Source: Pectinatus brassicae (lineage in GTDB: Bacteria > Bacillota > Negativicutes > Selenomonadales > Selenomonadaceae). Taken from it: a stretch of 38,374 nt of DNA. The DNA is taken from positions 1 through 38,374 of the forward strand of contig NZ_JACHFH010000028.1 of NCBI RefSeq assembly GCF_014201835.1. Reading direction: 5' to 3'. Below the pieces are notes generated by a model. It saw only the letters and a list, made by a program, of their open reading frames with translations. It was not told the origin of the DNA and ran no database searches. The first letter of the stretch is position 1; every line of letters begins with the position of its first letter. The translations under genes were made by a program, and so were the position numbers. Shown here one piece after another: positions 3,005-23,233 of the stretch.

Positions 3005-3171
3005 GATAGCAATTAAAGTCCTTTTTTAATATACTTTCCTGTAAAAACAATTAGCAAAATGATTATTCATCTTAAAAAAATAATATAATTACTACTCTAT
3101 TAAGATAATCTTAAATATAATTTTATTTTCTGTCAATACGTAAATTAAATAAATATCTATTAATAATGATT

Positions 3172-5221: not shown

Positions 5222-6133
5222 TTATACAAAAAATTGTGTATTATCATTATCATTTATTTTAGATTTTTTTTGCTGCAAAAGGATTTCAACAATTCTATCC
5301 AAATCTGACTCTGTAAGAAATTCTATTTCAATCTTACCAGCCTTCTTACCCGTTTTTATTTTTACTTTATTGCCAAACAACATTTTTAACTTATCTTCCG
5401 CATCATTAATAAAAATATCCTTTATTGGCAAAACACTTTTTGTATCTTCTATAAAATAATCTTTATTATTATCTATTTTTTTGACTAGTTTTTCTGCATC
5501 GCGCGCTGATAATTCATTGGCAATTATATACAAGGCTGTTTGTTCCTGCAAATTTTTATTCTCAATAGACAATAATGGTTTTGCCTGCCCCATATTTAGA
5601 TTACCCTTATTTATTTGTTCTTTAACAATATCCGACAATTGTAACAGCCGTAAAAAGTTGGCAACATGACTACGGCTTTTCCCTACATATTGTGCTAATT
5701 CACTTTGCGTTATGCTGCATTCCTGTAAAAGATTATTATACGCTGTTGCTTCCTCTAAGGCATTTAAATCTTCTCTTTGTAGATTTTCTATCAGTGCAAT
5801 TTGTGCTGTCTGCTTATCATCATAATTCCTAATTACTGCTGGAATAACTTTTTTATCTGCCTTTTTTGAAGCTTTTAGGCGACGTTCACCAGCTATTAAC
5901 TGATATTTTTCACCCACTTTTCGCAGCAGAACTGGCTGTAATACCCCATATTGTTTTATCGATTGAGCTAATTCATCCAACCCTGTATCATCAAAATTTT
6001 TTCTTGGCTGAAATGGATTACTCTCTATCAAGGCTATATCAATATCCGCAATTTTTTCTTTAAAATCAGGTTCAGCATCTTTTAACAATGCCCCTAATCC
6101 TTTTCCTAATCCACTGTGTACTTTTTTAGCCAT
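5222..6133 (-). CDS. parB: Chromosome-partitioning protein ParB (Spo0J)
   Basis: 303 residues. ParB is a CTP-dependent DNA clamp that loads at parS, spreads, and recruits SMC for origin segregation. Domains: an N-terminal lysine-rich ParA-stimulating tail (KKVHSGLGKGLGALL, 3-17), the CTP-binding ParB/Srx domain with GERRLKAS at 82-89 and ENLQRE at 116-121, a helix-turn-helix parS-binding domain (SELAQYVGKSRSHVANFLRLL, split around 145-165), and a C-terminal dimerisation domain. It overlaps parA by 8 bases, so the two are translationally coupled. Two parS-like sites lie within 1.7 kb upstream, at 6570-6585 and 7804-7819. Confidence 0.97.
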   Translation of the reverse strand: MAKKVHSGLGKGLGALLKDAEPDFKEKIADIDIALIESNPFQPRKNFDDTGLDELAQSIKQYGVLQPVLLRKVGEKYQLIAGERRLKASKKADKKVIPAVIRNYDDKQTAQIALIENLQREDLNALEEATAYNNLLQECSITQSELAQYVGKSRSHVANFLRLLQLSDIVKEQINKGNLNMGQAKPLLSIENKNLQEQTALYIIANELSARDAEKLVKKIDNNKDYFIEDTKSVLPIKDIFINDAEDKLKMLFGNKVKIKTGKKAGKIEIEFLTESDLDRIVEILLQQKKSKINDNDNTQFFV

Positions 6134-6884
6134 TCTTTATGACCTCCTCTGCCAAATCCTTATAAGCAATAGCACCTTTGGAATCTGCTGCATATTCATT
6201 GATCGGACAGCCATAAGAAGGAGCTTCACTCAAACGCACATTACGAGGAATCATTGTCCTATATACTTTATCAGGAAAATGTTTTTTTACTTCCTCTGCA
6301 ACTTGTGCCGATAAATTAGTGCGGGCATCATACATAGTTAACAAAACACCCTCCAATGATAATTTCTCATTAAGGTTTTCATGCACTAATTTAATCGTAT
6401 TAAGAATTTGTGTCATTCCTTCCAATGCATAAAATTCACATTGCAGCGGTAATATGACTGAATCAGCTGCTGTTAATGCATTAATTGTCAATAATCCTAA
6501 TGATGGCGGACAATCGATGATTATATAATCATAAGCATTTTTAATTTTGTCCAACGCTTTTTTTAATTTTGTTTCACGTGAAAACATTGATACCATTTCC
6601 ACTTCGGCTCCAGCCAAATCTATCAATGCGGGCAGTACTTTAATTCCACCATTTGTTGCTACTATAATTTCTAATATATTTTTTTCCCGTAATAATAAAT
6701 CATATAATGATAATTTTATTTGTCCCTTTTCTATGCCACAACCACTGGTAGCATTTCCCTGCGGATCTGTATCTACCAATAAAACCTTATAACCTCTATC
6801 CACTAATGCTGCACTTAAATTTATTGCCGTTGTAGTTTTACCCACACCGCCTTTTTGATTAGCCAATGCAATTATTTTTGCCAT
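6126..6884 (-). CDS. parA: Chromosome-partitioning ATPase ParA (Soj)
   Basis: 252-residue deviant Walker-A ATPase of the Soj/MinD group. It works with ParB in origin segregation, and in Bacillus it also regulates DnaA. The deviant P-loop KGGVGKTTT lies at 11-19 with the signature Lys11, Walker A' DTDPQGNAT at 39-47, and Walker B IIIDCPPSLG. The length is that of the chromosomal (non-plasmid) type lacking an N-terminal HTH. The RBS AGAAGGTG lies just before ATG. A parS-like palindrome is embedded in the coding sequence at 6570-6585. The gene is divergent from the methionine synthase activation gene across 226 bases. Confidence 0.97.
   Translation of the reverse strand: MAKIIALANQKGGVGKTTTAINLSAALVDRGYKVLLVDTDPQGNATSGCGIEKGQIKLSLYDLLLREKNILEIIVATNGGIKVLPALIDLAGAEVEMVSMFSRETKLKKALDKIKNAYDYIIIDCPPSLGLLTINALTAADSVILPLQCEFYALEGMTQILNTIKLVHENLNEKLSLEGVLLTMYDARTNLSAQVAEEVKKHFPDKVYRTMIPRNVRLSEAPSYGCPINEYAADSKGAIAYKDLAEEVIKNG
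6570..6585. promoter_or_regulatory. parS-like ParB-binding site inside parA
   Basis: TGTTTCACGTGAAAAC matches the bacterial parS consensus TGTTTCACGTGAAACA at 14 of 16 positions, with the 12-base palindromic core TTTCACGTGAAA intact. Origin-proximal position and embedding in a par gene match known chromosomal parS sites. Confidence 0.8.
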
Positions 6885-7803: not shown

Positions 7804-7819
7804 TGTTTCACGTGCAACA
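7804..7819. promoter_or_regulatory. parS-like ParB-binding site
   Basis: TGTTTCACGTGCAACA matches the parS consensus at 15 of 16 positions. It fills the short gap between the MetH activation gene and metH, 1.2 kb from the site inside parA. Confidence 0.85.
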
Positions 7820-11530: not shown

Positions 11531-12706
11531 ATGAACTCAATGGAACTAAAATATGGCTGTAATCCAAATCAAAAACCGGCTAAAGTATTTATGAAAGATG
11601 ACCAATCTTTACCCTTTACTGTCTTAAATGGTCGTCCAGGCTATATCAATCTACTGGATGCTTTTAACAGCTGGCAGTTGGTACAGGAATTAAAAAAGGC
11701 TACCGGCCTGCCTGCTGCGGCATCATTTAAACACGTAAGTCCAGCCGGGGCAGCTGTAGGACTTCCATTATCTGATTTATTAAAAAAAGTTTATTTTGTT
11801 GAAGGAATTGAATTAACACCTTTAGCTACAGCTTATATCCGCGCTCGCGGTGCCGACAGAATGTCATCTTATGGTGATTTTGCTGCTTTATCGGACGAAT
11901 GTGACGCTGCTACAGCCTCCTTTTTAGCTAGAGAAGTTTCTGATGGAGTAATAGCTCCATCTTATTCTGCTGAAGCATTAGAAATATTGAAAAAGAAACG
12001 TAAAGGGACTTATCTTGTTTTGCAGATGGATGAAAATTATAAAGCTCCAGCTGCAGAAACTAAGGAAGTATTTGGTATTACCTTTGAACAGAAACGCAAT
12101 GATTTATTAATAAACAATGAATTATTGACATCTATTCCTACGATAAATAAAAACATGACTGACGATGCTAAACGTGATCTCACAATAGCACTTATAACCT
12201 TAAAATATACACAATCAAATTCTGTATGTTACAGTAAAGATGGGCAAGCCATTGGTATTGGTGCTGGTCAGCAATCACGTGTTCATTGTACACGTCTGGC
12301 CGGCAGCAAAGCTGATATTTGGCATTTACGTCAGCATCCTAAAGTTCTTAATCTGCCATTTAAGCAGGATGTACGCCGTCCTGATCGTGATAATGCTATT
12401 GATATATATATTTCTGATGAATATATGGATTTATTAGGCAATGATGATTGGCAGCGTGTCTTCACAGAAAAGCCTGCTATTTTAACTAAAGAAGAAAAGG
12501 ACAACTGGCTCAAACAAATAACAGGCGTAGCACTTGCTTCCGATGCCTTTTTCCCATTTGGTGATAATATTGAACGCGCCCATAAAAGCGGCGTTAGCTA
12601 TATTGCTCAAAGCGGCGGCTCTATACGTGACGATAATGTTATTGAAACATGTGATAAATATAATATAACAATGGCCATGACCGGCATTCGTTTATTCCAT
12701 CATTAA
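11531..12706 (+). CDS. Stand-alone AICAR transformylase
   Basis: 391 residues matching only the formyltransferase half of PurH: it converts AICAR and 10-formyltetrahydrofolate to FAICAR, the penultimate step of IMP synthesis. Family motifs are the opening LKYGCNPNQKPA, KHVSPAGAAVG at 67-77 (Lys67-His68 correspond to the catalytic Lys-His pair), NYKAPAAE, GAGQQSRVHCTRLAG, and ASDAFFPFGDN. The N-terminal IMP cyclohydrolase domain is missing, so a separate cyclohydrolase is needed elsewhere. This short form is known in several anaerobic Firmicutes. The RBS AAAGGAG lies upstream, with a hairpin in the leader and a strong terminator after the stop. Confidence 0.88.
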   Translation: MNSMELKYGCNPNQKPAKVFMKDDQSLPFTVLNGRPGYINLLDAFNSWQLVQELKKATGLPAAASFKHVSPAGAAVGLPLSDLLKKVYFVEGIELTPLATAYIRARGADRMSSYGDFAALSDECDAATASFLAREVSDGVIAPSYSAEALEILKKKRKGTYLVLQMDENYKAPAAETKEVFGITFEQKRNDLLINNELLTSIPTINKNMTDDAKRDLTIALITLKYTQSNSVCYSKDGQAIGIGAGQQSRVHCTRLAGSKADIWHLRQHPKVLNLPFKQDVRRPDRDNAIDIYISDEYMDLLGNDDWQRVFTEKPAILTKEEKDNWLKQITGVALASDAFFPFGDNIERAHKSGVSYIAQSGGSIRDDNVIETCDKYNITMAMTGIRLFHH

Positions 12707-12710
12707 TTTA

Positions 12711-12764
12711 TAAATAAAGCCAGACATCCTAAATTATTATTTATGGATATCTGGCTTTATTTAT
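12711..12764 (+). terminator. Intrinsic terminator of AICAR transformylase gene
   Basis: A 19-base stem with one mismatch (AAAGCCAGA..ATCC with GGAT..TCTGGCTTT) around a 15-base loop, directly after the stop codon. Confidence 0.8.
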
Positions 12765-12774
12765 ATGACTTCCT

Positions 12775-13029
12775 AAAAAAGAAGAATTATCCACAAATCA
12801 TCAATTAAATTTGTGGATAATTCTTCTTTTTTCTACATTTATAAATTTTATTATTATGCTTAAACCCATAAATAATACGACTTTATACTCTAAAAAAATA
12901 TATTGCATTATAGAATATATGCTTGTGGATAAGTTTTATAATTGTTAACAAATTATTAACAGTTTTTATCATTTATCCACTAGTTATCCACAATATCCAC
13001 AGCAAAAGCTGTGGATATTGTGGATAACT
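12775..13029. other. Distal DnaA-box cluster with two long perfect hairpins
   Basis: Eight DnaA-box matches in 255 bases. Exact TTATCCACA: 12787-12795 (+), 12812-12820 (-), 12924-12932 (-), 12984-12992 (+), 13019-13027 (-). One mismatch: 12973-12981 (+), 12993-13001 (+), 13010-13018 (-). A perfect 24-base stem (12775-12798 with 12809-12832) carries the first two; a perfect 22-base stem with an AAAA loop (12982-13003 with 13008-13029) carries four. AT-rich sequence lies between them. The cluster lies downstream of rsmG, about 7.4 kb from dnaA. It may be an additional origin element or a DnaA-titrating site; the first hairpin, with A6/T6 flanks, could also serve as a second terminator. Confidence 0.8.
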
Positions 13030-13049: not shown

Positions 13050-13715
13050 TTATAAACCTATATTAAAAACTCTATCTATAAAATCACTAGCCTGCCTATC
13101 AATACTGCGGTTATCAGCAGAAACTTTTACCAGCTGACCTTTTGTTGCCATTACTGCATTATATATAGTTTCTTCCACACTGCCTGGTATAACATCTTCC
13201 CAATTTTTTATTGAGTATACATTCTGTCTAACTGTATTAGATGGCTGACCTGTTACTTCCAGCTCACATAAAAACTGTATCTGACGACTTTTCGGCCTGA
13301 TATAATAATGATCCAGTAAATAACTTACCTGGTCTGGCACATTAGAATAATTTTCGTCCGGCTGATCTTTTTTATTGGCATCAACAAGTTGAATCCAAAC
13401 ATCCATTATTTCTTTTTTAGTATATGGTTCATATATCCATCTTGCCGTTTTTCTATCTAAATAATAATAAAATCGCTTATCCTTAGCAATCAAAACATAA
13501 CGTTTTTTATTGCTGGCTTCTTCTTTTTGCACCTTTTGCCAAATAGCAGCATCTTTAGTGTTAATTGTCTTATCCTGGCTAATTTGGGGCACATCTGGCG
13601 TTGTTTTTTCCGTACTTGCCTTTGTCTGTATCTCATTAGCTGCTGATGCTGTTCGTGAAAAATAAGGATTAAATAAAAAAACTGCACATATAACTATTAC
13701 TAAATATTTACCCAT
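13050..13715 (-). CDS. Secreted protein of unknown function
   Basis: 221 residues. The N-terminus has a clear Sec signal peptide: MGK, a hydrophobic core to about residue 17, then TASA before Ala25, a likely signal peptidase I site. The mature protein has a Lys/Thr/Gln-rich linker (about 26-65) and one domain with Tyr-rich segments (RFYYYLDRKTARWIYEPYT, HYYIRPKSRQIQFLCELEV) and VWIQLVD. This pattern resembles the surface-adhesin protein E-like secreted domains found repeatedly in Negativicutes, but I cannot confirm the family. It follows rsmG by 28 bases and may be the last gene of that operon. The DnaA-box hairpin starts 20 bases after its stop. Confidence 0.75.
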   Translation of the reverse strand: MGKYLVIVICAVFLFNPYFSRTASAANEIQTKASTEKTTPDVPQISQDKTINTKDAAIWQKVQKEEASNKKRYVLIAKDKRFYYYLDRKTARWIYEPYTKKEIMDVWIQLVDANKKDQPDENYSNVPDQVSYLLDHYYIRPKSRQIQFLCELEVTGQPSNTVRQNVYSIKNWEDVIPGSVEETIYNAVMATKGQLVKVSADNRSIDRQASDFIDRVFNIGL

Positions 13716-20033: not shown

Positions 20034-20079
20034 AACTTACACCTCCTTATGTTGATAAAAAGATAATTTGCTATATGAA

Positions 20080-20108
20080 ATTATAGACTACAAGGCTTAT
20101 AGTGTCAA
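20080..20108 (-). promoter_or_regulatory. Consensus promoter of the rpmH operon
   Basis: Minus-strand TTGACA (20103-20108), a 17-base spacer and TATAAT (20080-20085): a perfect sigma-70/sigma-A promoter, with TSS about 40 bases before the rpmH start. Confidence 0.92.
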
Positions 20109-20428
20109 CAATACAAAATAATTATTGATAACTTTATTATGTTTTGATAATATGGTATATACATATCCACATCTTTATCCACATATATCTTAATTATTAA
20201 CATACTTATCAACAACCTGTCAATCCCTTATTTTATAGCATTATAAAAAATGATAGTTATTAACAGTCCCTTATTGATAACTATTTATCAGTATTAATAA
20301 GTTATCAACAGTTGTGTATAACTTTGTGGATAACTTTTTTTGTGGAATTAATACATTTTATATAAATTTATCATGGCAAAAGTAATTTTTTTACTTTTTT
20401 ATTCTACAGCACAGAAAGGATCTTATTA
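20109..20428. other. oriC, upstream DnaA-box cluster (rpmH-dnaA intergenic)
   Basis: The 395-base gap between rpmH and dnaA carries DnaA boxes at 20163-20171 (ATATCCACA), 20175-20183 (TTATCCACA), 20206-20214 (TTATCAACA), 20302-20310 (TTATCAACA), 20313-20321 (TTATACACA, minus) and 20325-20333 (TTATCCACA, minus). The rest is AT-rich. This is the upstream half of a bipartite oriC of the Firmicutes type and probably also autoregulates dnaA. A weak 8-base hairpin, AAAAGTAA/TTACTTTT at 20378-20398, lies in the dnaA leader. Confidence 0.9.
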
Positions 20429-21850: not shown

Positions 21851-22114
21851 AAGAGAAAAATTTTTTTAAAAAATAAGTTATCCACAAAATGTTATCTTTT
21901 CATGTATAAAGTGTTTATTTTTTGTGTATAACTTTATGAATAAATTAAAATTGTTAATATGTGGATAACGTTACTCAACTTATTAACAATTTATCAACAG
22001 CAAAAATCTTATCAACAGTGAATAAATTAGACTTATCAACATTTTCACAGCCCCTATTACTAATACGACTAACCTTATATATGTATATAATAATAATAAA
22101 TAAGGAGAAAACTA
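21851..22114. other. oriC, downstream DnaA-box cluster (dnaA-dnaN intergenic)
   Basis: DnaA boxes at 21878-21886 (TTATCCACA), 21923-21931 (TTATACACA, minus), 21960-21968 (TTATCCACA, minus), 21991-21999, 22009-22017 and 22033-22041 (all TTATCAACA). The last three are regularly spaced at 18 and 24 bases. In Bacillus the unwinding element lies in the equivalent dnaA-dnaN gap, so this is the likely melting half of oriC. The dnaN promoter probably lies at its right edge, near a TATAAT at about 22085. Confidence 0.9.
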
Positions 22115-23233
22115 ATGAAATTTACATGTCCTAAAAATGAGCTTGCCAAAGCCATACAAATAAACATTAAAGCCATATCTAACAAACCGCAAATGCCTAT
22201 TCTATCAGGAATATACATACACGCAGAAAATAATTTATTAGAGATTCAATCAACTGATTACGATATAGGTATCGTATGTAAAATTGAAGCTGATATTGAA
22301 GAAGAAGGTTCGCTCGTCTTATCAGGCAAATATTTTTCTGATGTTATCAAAACATTACCTGGGGATAACATAGAACTTTCATCCTCTAATCTACAAAACA
22401 CAGTTATCATTAAGTCTAACAGCGCCAAATTTAATTTACTAAGTATGTCTTCTTCCGATTTTCCTAAAATAAAACAATTGGAAAGTGACAATCATTTCAC
22501 TATTCGCAGCAATATATTAACGGAATTAATCAAAAAAACCTCATTCGCCTGTGCTACAGAAATGATACGTCCTATATTTACAGGCTGTCTTTTAGATATA
22601 AACAGTGTAAGTCTTGTTATGGCAGGTACTAATACGCATAGATTATCCGTAAAAAAAGAAATTCTCGATAATTATGATACTAATTTAACAGCTAAATTAG
22701 TCATTCCAGCAAAACTCTTAAATGACTTATCAACATTACTGACTTCTGATATTCCGGTTGATGTCAATGTTGTTTATACACATAATCAAATTAGCTTTTC
22801 TTATGACAATATTTATATTGTTTCTCGCCTTATCGAAGGTCAATTTCCTGACTATAATAATGTTATTCCGCCAGCTTTTTCCACAACAGTAACCATTAAA
22901 ACACATGATTTTCAAAGTGCTATTGATCGTGTTTCCCTTATATCACGCTCTAACCAATATAATATTATTAACCTTGACTTCACTAGTGATACTTTACTTC
23001 TTTCATCAGATAATCCTGAAATAGGTAAAGCTGAAGAAAGTATTAATGTTAAACTAGCGGGCTCACCTTTAAATATATCTTTTAATGCTAAATATATATT
23101 GGATGTCTTAAAATACATTAATTCTGATGAAATCTATTTTTCTTTTAACAGCGAAACAAGCCCGGTACAAATTAAGCCAACTGATGATGATATGTATATT
23201 TATGTAGTTACACCTGTTCGTCGCAATAAATAA
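22115..23233 (+). CDS. dnaN: DNA polymerase III beta sliding clamp
   Basis: 372 residues; a dimeric ring that tethers the replicative polymerase. Three repeated clamp domains are discernible: opening MKFTCPKNELAKAIQ, SKPQMPILSGIY-like segment at about 20-32, central FACATEMIRPIFTGCLLDI, and the C-terminal VQIKPTDDDMYIYVVTPVR (peptide-binding pocket and MPVR-like end, here TPVR). The RBS AAGGAG is seven bases upstream. A strong terminator follows, so recF is transcribed separately. Confidence 0.97.
   Translation: MKFTCPKNELAKAIQINIKAISNKPQMPILSGIYIHAENNLLEIQSTDYDIGIVCKIEADIEEEGSLVLSGKYFSDVIKTLPGDNIELSSSNLQNTVIIKSNSAKFNLLSMSSSDFPKIKQLESDNHFTIRSNILTELIKKTSFACATEMIRPIFTGCLLDINSVSLVMAGTNTHRLSVKKEILDNYDTNLTAKLVIPAKLLNDLSTLLTSDIPVDVNVVYTHNQISFSYDNIYIVSRLIEGQFPDYNNVIPPAFSTTVTIKTHDFQSAIDRVSLISRSNQYNIINLDFTSDTLLLSSDNPEIGKAEESINVKLAGSPLNISFNAKYILDVLKYINSDEIYFSFNSETSPVQIKPTDDDMYIYVVTPVRRNK

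Follow-up and report, generated by a model that had tools for sequence, protein, structure and literature searches.

A dense cluster of DnaA boxes that lies outside oriC in Pectinatus brassicae, 7.4 kb from dnaA (measured between 13029 and 20429, where dnaA starts), is probably an oriC-proximal regulatory site of the kind represented by the DnaA-box clusters (DBCs) of Bacillus subtilis and datA of Escherichia coli, which would keep DnaA off oriC; we assign this reading a probability of roughly 60%. The cluster was analyzed within a window of 38,374 nucleotides (the whole stretch of DNA under study, from contig NZ_JACHFH010000028.1), and it is notable for its density, fixed spacing and position. 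These properties are directly established, as are its box content, its conservation and the absence of an origin signature. Among the readings offered in the initial annotation of this DNA, that of a DnaA sink controlling initiation is the best supported, as the cluster is conserved, origin-proximal, the densest in the assembly and one of several such sites.

The cluster comprises eight DnaA boxes at 12787-13027 (241 bp), five of which match TTATCCACA, the DnaA-box consensus of Firmicutes, exactly, while three contain one mismatch. Six boxes are embedded in two perfect, unstranded hairpins, which are the second and third longest of the five listed perfect inverted repeats of at least 19 nt in the window (arms no more than 80 bp apart). 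Hairpin 1 (12775-12832; 24-nt arms at 12775-12798 and 12809-12832, loop of 10) consists of an A-tract, a stem and a T-tract, and contains a single inverted pair of exact boxes positioned 25 bp apart (12787-12795 on the + strand and 12812-12820 on the - strand). Hairpin 2 (12982-13029; 22-nt arms at 12982-13003 and 13008-13029, loop of 4) contains four boxes: an outer exact pair spaced by 35 bp (12984-12992, +; 13019-13027, -) and, inside it, two one-mismatch boxes of sequence ATATCCACA (12993-13001, +; 13010-13018, -). The remaining two are a one-mismatch box, TTATCCACT, at 12973-12981 (+) and an exact box standing alone at 12924-12932 (-), which is exact in four of the five genomes of the genus and missing in G002 (G and L numbers are our handles for genomes and loci). 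The spacings between opposed boxes in the cluster are 25, 35, 37, 26 and 17 bp. The box and inverted-repeat searches thus agree with the initial annotation, which had counted eight boxes, five of them exact, had placed six in perfect 24- and 22-base stems, and had located the cluster 7.4 kb from dnaA in addition to the usual clusters on both sides of that gene. The latter correspond to an oriC1-type cluster upstream of dnaA (20050-20333, unstranded, seven boxes with up to one mismatch) and an oriC2-type cluster between dnaA and dnaN (21878-22041, unstranded, six boxes with up to one mismatch). The cluster had also been placed between the AICAR transformylase gene and the block ending in rsmG, which calls for a small correction. 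Its convergent neighbor is indeed the AICAR transformylase gene (11531-12706, +; PRK07106 type by profile match), but on the other side a 221-aa open reading frame (13050-13715, -) intervenes before rsmG. This frame is the last gene of the rnpA-yidC-jag-mnmE-mnmG-rsmG run, and the cluster sits where that run ends, 1.4 kb past the 3' end of mnmG. Searches of Pfam and NCBIfam at E 0.001 gave no match to this unassigned 221-aa protein; judged by eye it carries a signal peptide and looks secreted, and many genomes of the family have a homologue close to rsmG or to the AICAR transformylase gene.

The density of the cluster far exceeds what base composition produces. The maximum number of boxes (up to one mismatch) was three in any 260 bp of 300 first-order Markov versions of the window, and again three in 20,000 simulated 360-bp segments of local composition. 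In the 2.85 Mb assembly, five of the 72 exact boxes fall within these 241 bp, making it the densest exact-box group, and the next separate group contains three; under a uniform model, 4.1e-9 groups of this kind would be expected across the genome. In G004, a near-complete genome of the same genus (main contig 2.6 Mb), the densest group is likewise the orthologous cluster, which has five exact boxes in 260 bp as compared to a maximum of three in 20,000 uniform placements, and the dnaA flanks of that genome carry two and three exact boxes. A chance or compositional artefact of an AT-rich genome, for which one could cite the AT-rich nature of TTATCCACA and its 72 exact copies against 35 for a reversed control, is refuted by these counts and by the recurrence of the cluster at this locus in 12 genera, and its probability is virtually nil.

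Within the genus, the cluster is conserved in the window's own genome and in all four others, and conservation is concentrated in the boxes: 42 of 72 box columns in the alignment are invariant, as compared to 48 of 283 other columns. The arms of hairpin 1 are invariant beyond the boxes as well (AAGAAGAA/TTCTTCTT in 5/5 genomes), and its boxes are 25 bp apart in four genomes and 23 bp apart in G002, where both read TTATCAACA. The outer boxes of hairpin 2 retain their 35-bp spacing in all five species while the sequence between them changes, such that the interior is no longer palindromic in G001 and G003. The base pairs that flank these outer boxes vary by species, yet stay complementary in four of the five (there are none in G003). 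Cruciform formation, which the palindromic layout had suggested to the initial annotation, is consequently doubtful for hairpin 2, since every genome keeps the outer spacing, including the two that have lost the inner symmetry; hairpin 1, which is also terminator-like, may form one.

A search of close relatives had been proposed as a check on the cluster, and its conservation extends from the genus to the family. Defining presence as at least three boxes (no more than one mismatch) in 260 bp, we found that 19 of 45 Selenomonadaceae genomes, representing 12 of 28 genera, carry the cluster at this locus, and the other 26 lack it there. Seventeen of the 19 have it next to the 3' end of the AICAR transformylase gene, and two (G018 and G024) next to the 221-aa frame. 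The 45 derive from 49 genomes of the family, including the window's own, after G005, G014, G034 and G040 were left out for want of an AICAR transformylase match, and the locus of G026 contains a run of N, making its box count a lower bound. The 38 family loci analyzed (654 kb) contain 16 clusters at this site, spread over 15 of the loci, and only six elsewhere off the recognized oriC flanks. Among these six, L098 probably represents the flank of dnaA in G033, and L103 corresponds to the mgtC site described below. Arrangements at the site vary, and two boxes 12 bp apart followed by an opposed box 33 bp on recur in G018, G033 and G046. On a tree of the AICAR transformylase the presence label requires 8 changes, as compared to about 15 when shuffled; presence is therefore grouped by kinship, with repeated gains or losses, on a tree that is built from one protein by a quick method, leaves 17 of 42 inner branches open and includes one row (G048) that is only 27% filled.

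The distribution also relates to the distance from dnaA. The two genes share a contig in 26 of the 45 genomes. Of these, 16 have the AICAR transformylase gene no more than 11 kb from dnaA, and 12 of them carry the cluster; of the 10 in which the gene lies farther away, one does (p 0.004). Distances in this test were taken by hand (those of G033 and G038 run over contig ends, which were taken as joined), kinship is uncorrected, and independence is overstated because five of the 12 near genomes belong to one genus. G029 carries the cluster at a distance of 40 kb from dnaA. Among the 26 genomes that lack it at this site, G009, G019, G027 and G037 have their AICAR transformylase gene no more than 11 kb from dnaA; the cluster is therefore dispensable in the family. 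The two g7 genomes, which are without the cluster here, have box groups about 1 kb beyond recF (G038:C1:4971-5177, L200; G010, L201 8996-9025), which are possibly its relocated counterpart. Together with the near/far pattern, these groups indicate that the cluster tends to follow the origin neighborhood and not the gene. That it merely trails the AICAR transformylase gene can be dismissed, as G018 and G024 carry it by the 221-aa frame and it is absent in 9 of the 10 far genomes.

How might such a cluster act? Judging from its boxes, DnaA is predicted to occupy it, and several DnaA molecules would bind in opposed orientations at the fixed spacing set by the inverted box pairs. At 7.4-7.5 kb from dnaA the cluster is duplicated almost immediately after initiation, and the two new copies would either hold DnaA (titration) or draw it into complexes that alter its nucleotide state. 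In both cases less DnaA would be available at oriC, preventing early refiring. A negative effect on initiation is thus suggested by analogy with the B. subtilis DBCs and E. coli datA. DnaA-box clusters outside oriC were reportedly described in B. subtilis by Okumura et al. in 2012. With several consensus boxes packed into a few hundred bp that lie apart from the dnaA-flanking oriC, the window cluster has the make-up of a DBC, and it shares with the DBCs the TTATCCACA consensus, dense boxes outside oriC and the occurrence of several such sites per chromosome. It differs in the fixed spacing of its boxes and in their arrangement as inverted pairs within perfect hairpins, and the likeness is drawn from the general features just named. 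According to two reviews, removal of six DBCs from B. subtilis leads to early initiation (PMC5295017, PMC13220808), although the first of them (PMC5295017) also plays down the role of the DBCs. With datA, the cluster shares its non-coding nature, its position on the oriC side of the chromosome and its early duplication. The action of datA, which stimulates DnaA-ATP hydrolysis, depends on IHF, for which it has a site between its boxes. It is located ~470 kb from oriC in the description of datA and DARS in PMC5742627. Literature searches yielded, among the matches listed, nothing on this cluster and nothing on the origin of this family in a query for Negativicutes oriC and DnaA; Selenomonadaceae combined with DnaA box returned no match, and a query for palindromic DnaA boxes outside oriC led to Campylobacter. 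A 2026 review (PMC13220808) describes the existence of B. subtilis regulators that keep ATP-DnaA and ADP-DnaA in balance as unknown. With its conservation, very high density, fixed spacing and place next to the origin, the cluster offers a small defined DNA with which such control could be tested directly, in a family in whose 10 sampled genomes YabA was not found and whose relatives without the cluster are natural controls.

The cluster is one of several such sites. Of 121 family genomes, 84 contain exact boxes in opposed pairs, as compared to 3 for a reversed control. A second cluster, flanked by a FakA-like gene and a gene for menaquinone biosynthesis (presumably mqnA), is orthologous in all five genomes of the genus (G000:C3:57305-57550, L278; orthologues L210, L211, L212 and L214); its distance from dnaA, which can be measured in G001, G003 and G004, is about 161-177 kb. 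A third, between an NRAMP gene and mgtC, is orthologous in four of the five and has no counterpart in G002. The region upstream of mgtC shows a recurring architecture: in a search of 33 of the 49 genomes, MgtC was found in 22, and 16 of these have at least three boxes, and up to nine, in 260 bp. Examples include G011, G028, G019, G039, G045, G030 and G018, among others (L292, L304, L298, L299, L294, L296, L303). These clusters often have two directly abutting boxes, and a tight three-box (+)11(-)12(-) group, close in layout to the E. coli DARS core, occurs in G019, G028 and G030; the mgtC clusters are perhaps more striking than the window cluster. In G004, all exact-box groups lie within 200 kb of dnaA except one (two boxes at 787 kb), and G033 has a group of three exact boxes 693 kb from dnaA. 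YabA was not detected in any of 16 genomes searched, 10 of them from this family, while the B. subtilis and Lactococcus lactis controls were positive.

One alternative is that the cluster is a DARS-like or datA-like switch, in which opposed and tandem boxes would build a specific DnaA complex with ADP-releasing or ATP-hydrolysing activity, so that the site would set the nucleotide state of DnaA and do more than bind it. We consider this explanation unlikely, with a modest chance of being correct. In favor of it, three-box groups with a tandem pair 12 bp apart and one opposed box recur in the family, the opposed spacing being 22 bp in 29 of 121 genomes and 33 bp in 21 of 121 (up to two mismatches; a reversed-pattern control gave 0 in both cases, and only some of the sites are placed relative to oriC). 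DARS cores share this combination of opposed and tandem boxes, box I being opposed to boxes II and III (PMC5742627), and in E. coli K-12 we measured the cores of DARS1 and DARS2 as (+)14(-)12(-), with DARS2 boxes containing one to two mismatches. The opposed spacing here is, however, 22, 25, 33 or 35 bp as compared to 14 bp in both E. coli cores. The window cluster has more boxes in another order and contains neither a 12/22 nor a 12/33 group, and the tight three-box pattern gave 0 matches in G000. We therefore do not count it among DARS elements, as its geometry differs from the 14/12-bp core. In addition, tight three-box groups occur directly upstream of dnaA in G013, G017, G018, G019, G025, G041, G044 and G045, so this topology is not diagnostic. 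A broader proposal is that the family, in whose sampled genomes YabA was not found, runs DnaA through distributed, geometry-coded sites (the rsmG end, fakA-like/mqnA and mgtC), where DnaA complexes assembled on opposed boxes and 12-bp tandem boxes would switch its nucleotide state. A datA/DARS-like circuit would then have evolved among didermic Firmicutes, and the window cluster would be its origin-proximal member. We regard this proposal as speculative and give it a small, though real, chance of holding.

The make-up of hairpin 1 raises the question of whether the cluster serves transcription. It would then combine a bidirectional terminator (hairpin 1) with a DnaA roadblock between convergent operons, and its boxes would have no role in replication. 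The A-tract, stem and T-tract of hairpin 1, together with its location between convergent genes, agree with this idea, and on the - strand it matches the intrinsic terminator consensus of a GC-containing stem followed by a T-tract. A terminator scan flagged hairpin 1 on that strand and hairpin 2 weakly on the + strand (three found, as compared to 0.5 in shuffles), and the RNA fold of hairpin 1 has -24.9 to -27.9 kcal/mol in five species. Its conservation past the boxes would suit a terminator as well, and under the main reading, too, hairpin 1 has probably fused with a terminator that serves both the AICAR transformylase gene and the rnpA-to-rsmG operon, which converge on it. This make-up can account for the arms that extend beyond the boxes, but not for the rest. 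It leaves unexplained the lone box at 12924 as well as hairpin 2, where a T-tract towards the - strand is missing; other genera share the boxes and not the stems, and in some of them (L059, L075 and L098, by eye) the boxes follow a separate hairpin 3' of the AICAR transformylase gene. A purely transcriptional role is thus improbable. An imperfect hairpin also follows the AICAR transformylase gene in the window (12709-12765, +; 28-nt arms, 86% complementary); it has a T-rich tail by eye, was not flagged in the terminator scan and is possibly the gene's own terminator. No known Rfam RNA was found, as all 23 matches at E up to 1 scored under their own gathering thresholds.

It is very improbable that the cluster forms the third part of a tripartite oriC, in which DnaA bound here would loop to the unwinding site between dnaA and dnaN and assist initiation. 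Its proximity to the origin, its wealth of DnaA boxes and its conservation are compatible with such a part, and the origins of B. subtilis and Clostridioides difficile are already two-part (PMC7561715). The dnaA-flanking clusters of the window resemble those bipartite origins, including a DnaA-trio-like run (CTA TTA CTA ATA CGA CTA; 22054-22071, +) that was read by eye with the C. difficile trio quoted in PMC7561715 for comparison. This run is followed by an AT-rich stretch (22054-22105 together) and likely marks the unwinding site, in a window in which AT-rich stretches are widespread. In contrast, no trio was seen beside the boxes of the third cluster when all three clusters were read by eye; only the dnaA-dnaN cluster has one. 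The cumulative skew reaches its minimum in the window at 23016, within dnaN. Genes on either side of the third cluster have a negative fourfold-site skew, among them the AICAR transformylase gene, which is oriented head-on (-0.51), and metH (-0.56). GC skew does not change sign at 12.8-13.0 kb, and because it is negative or near zero through recF and beyond, the switch is broad and in any case not at the cluster. Moreover, 26 of 45 relatives do without the cluster at this site. The initial annotation had pointed to the enterobacterial oriC beside mnmG (gidA) and considered a relic or active origin element, with GC skew as a means of mapping initiation; neither the skew nor the trio bears this out, and nor does the position of the cluster, with 1.4 kb separating it from the mnmG 3' end. 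A second origin is ruled out by the skew, the trio and the relatives that lack the cluster. A relic of an enterobacterial-type gidA origin is not supported; 22 loci from other families of the same class (20 of them including dnaA) contain only two clusters off the dnaA flanks. As none of these loci holds the AICAR transformylase gene and only four hold the 221-aa frame, the same site is loosely defined in this comparison. In L086, four one-mismatch boxes lie within mnmE. In L095 (G062, another family), three exact boxes occupy 30 bp (3020-3049) in the interval from parA to rsmG, adjacent to a parS-like site; they may be an independent cluster at a comparable position. In the window itself, parS-like sites with two and one mismatches to the consensus are found at 6570-6585 and 7804-7819, respectively, beside parA/parB (5222-6884).
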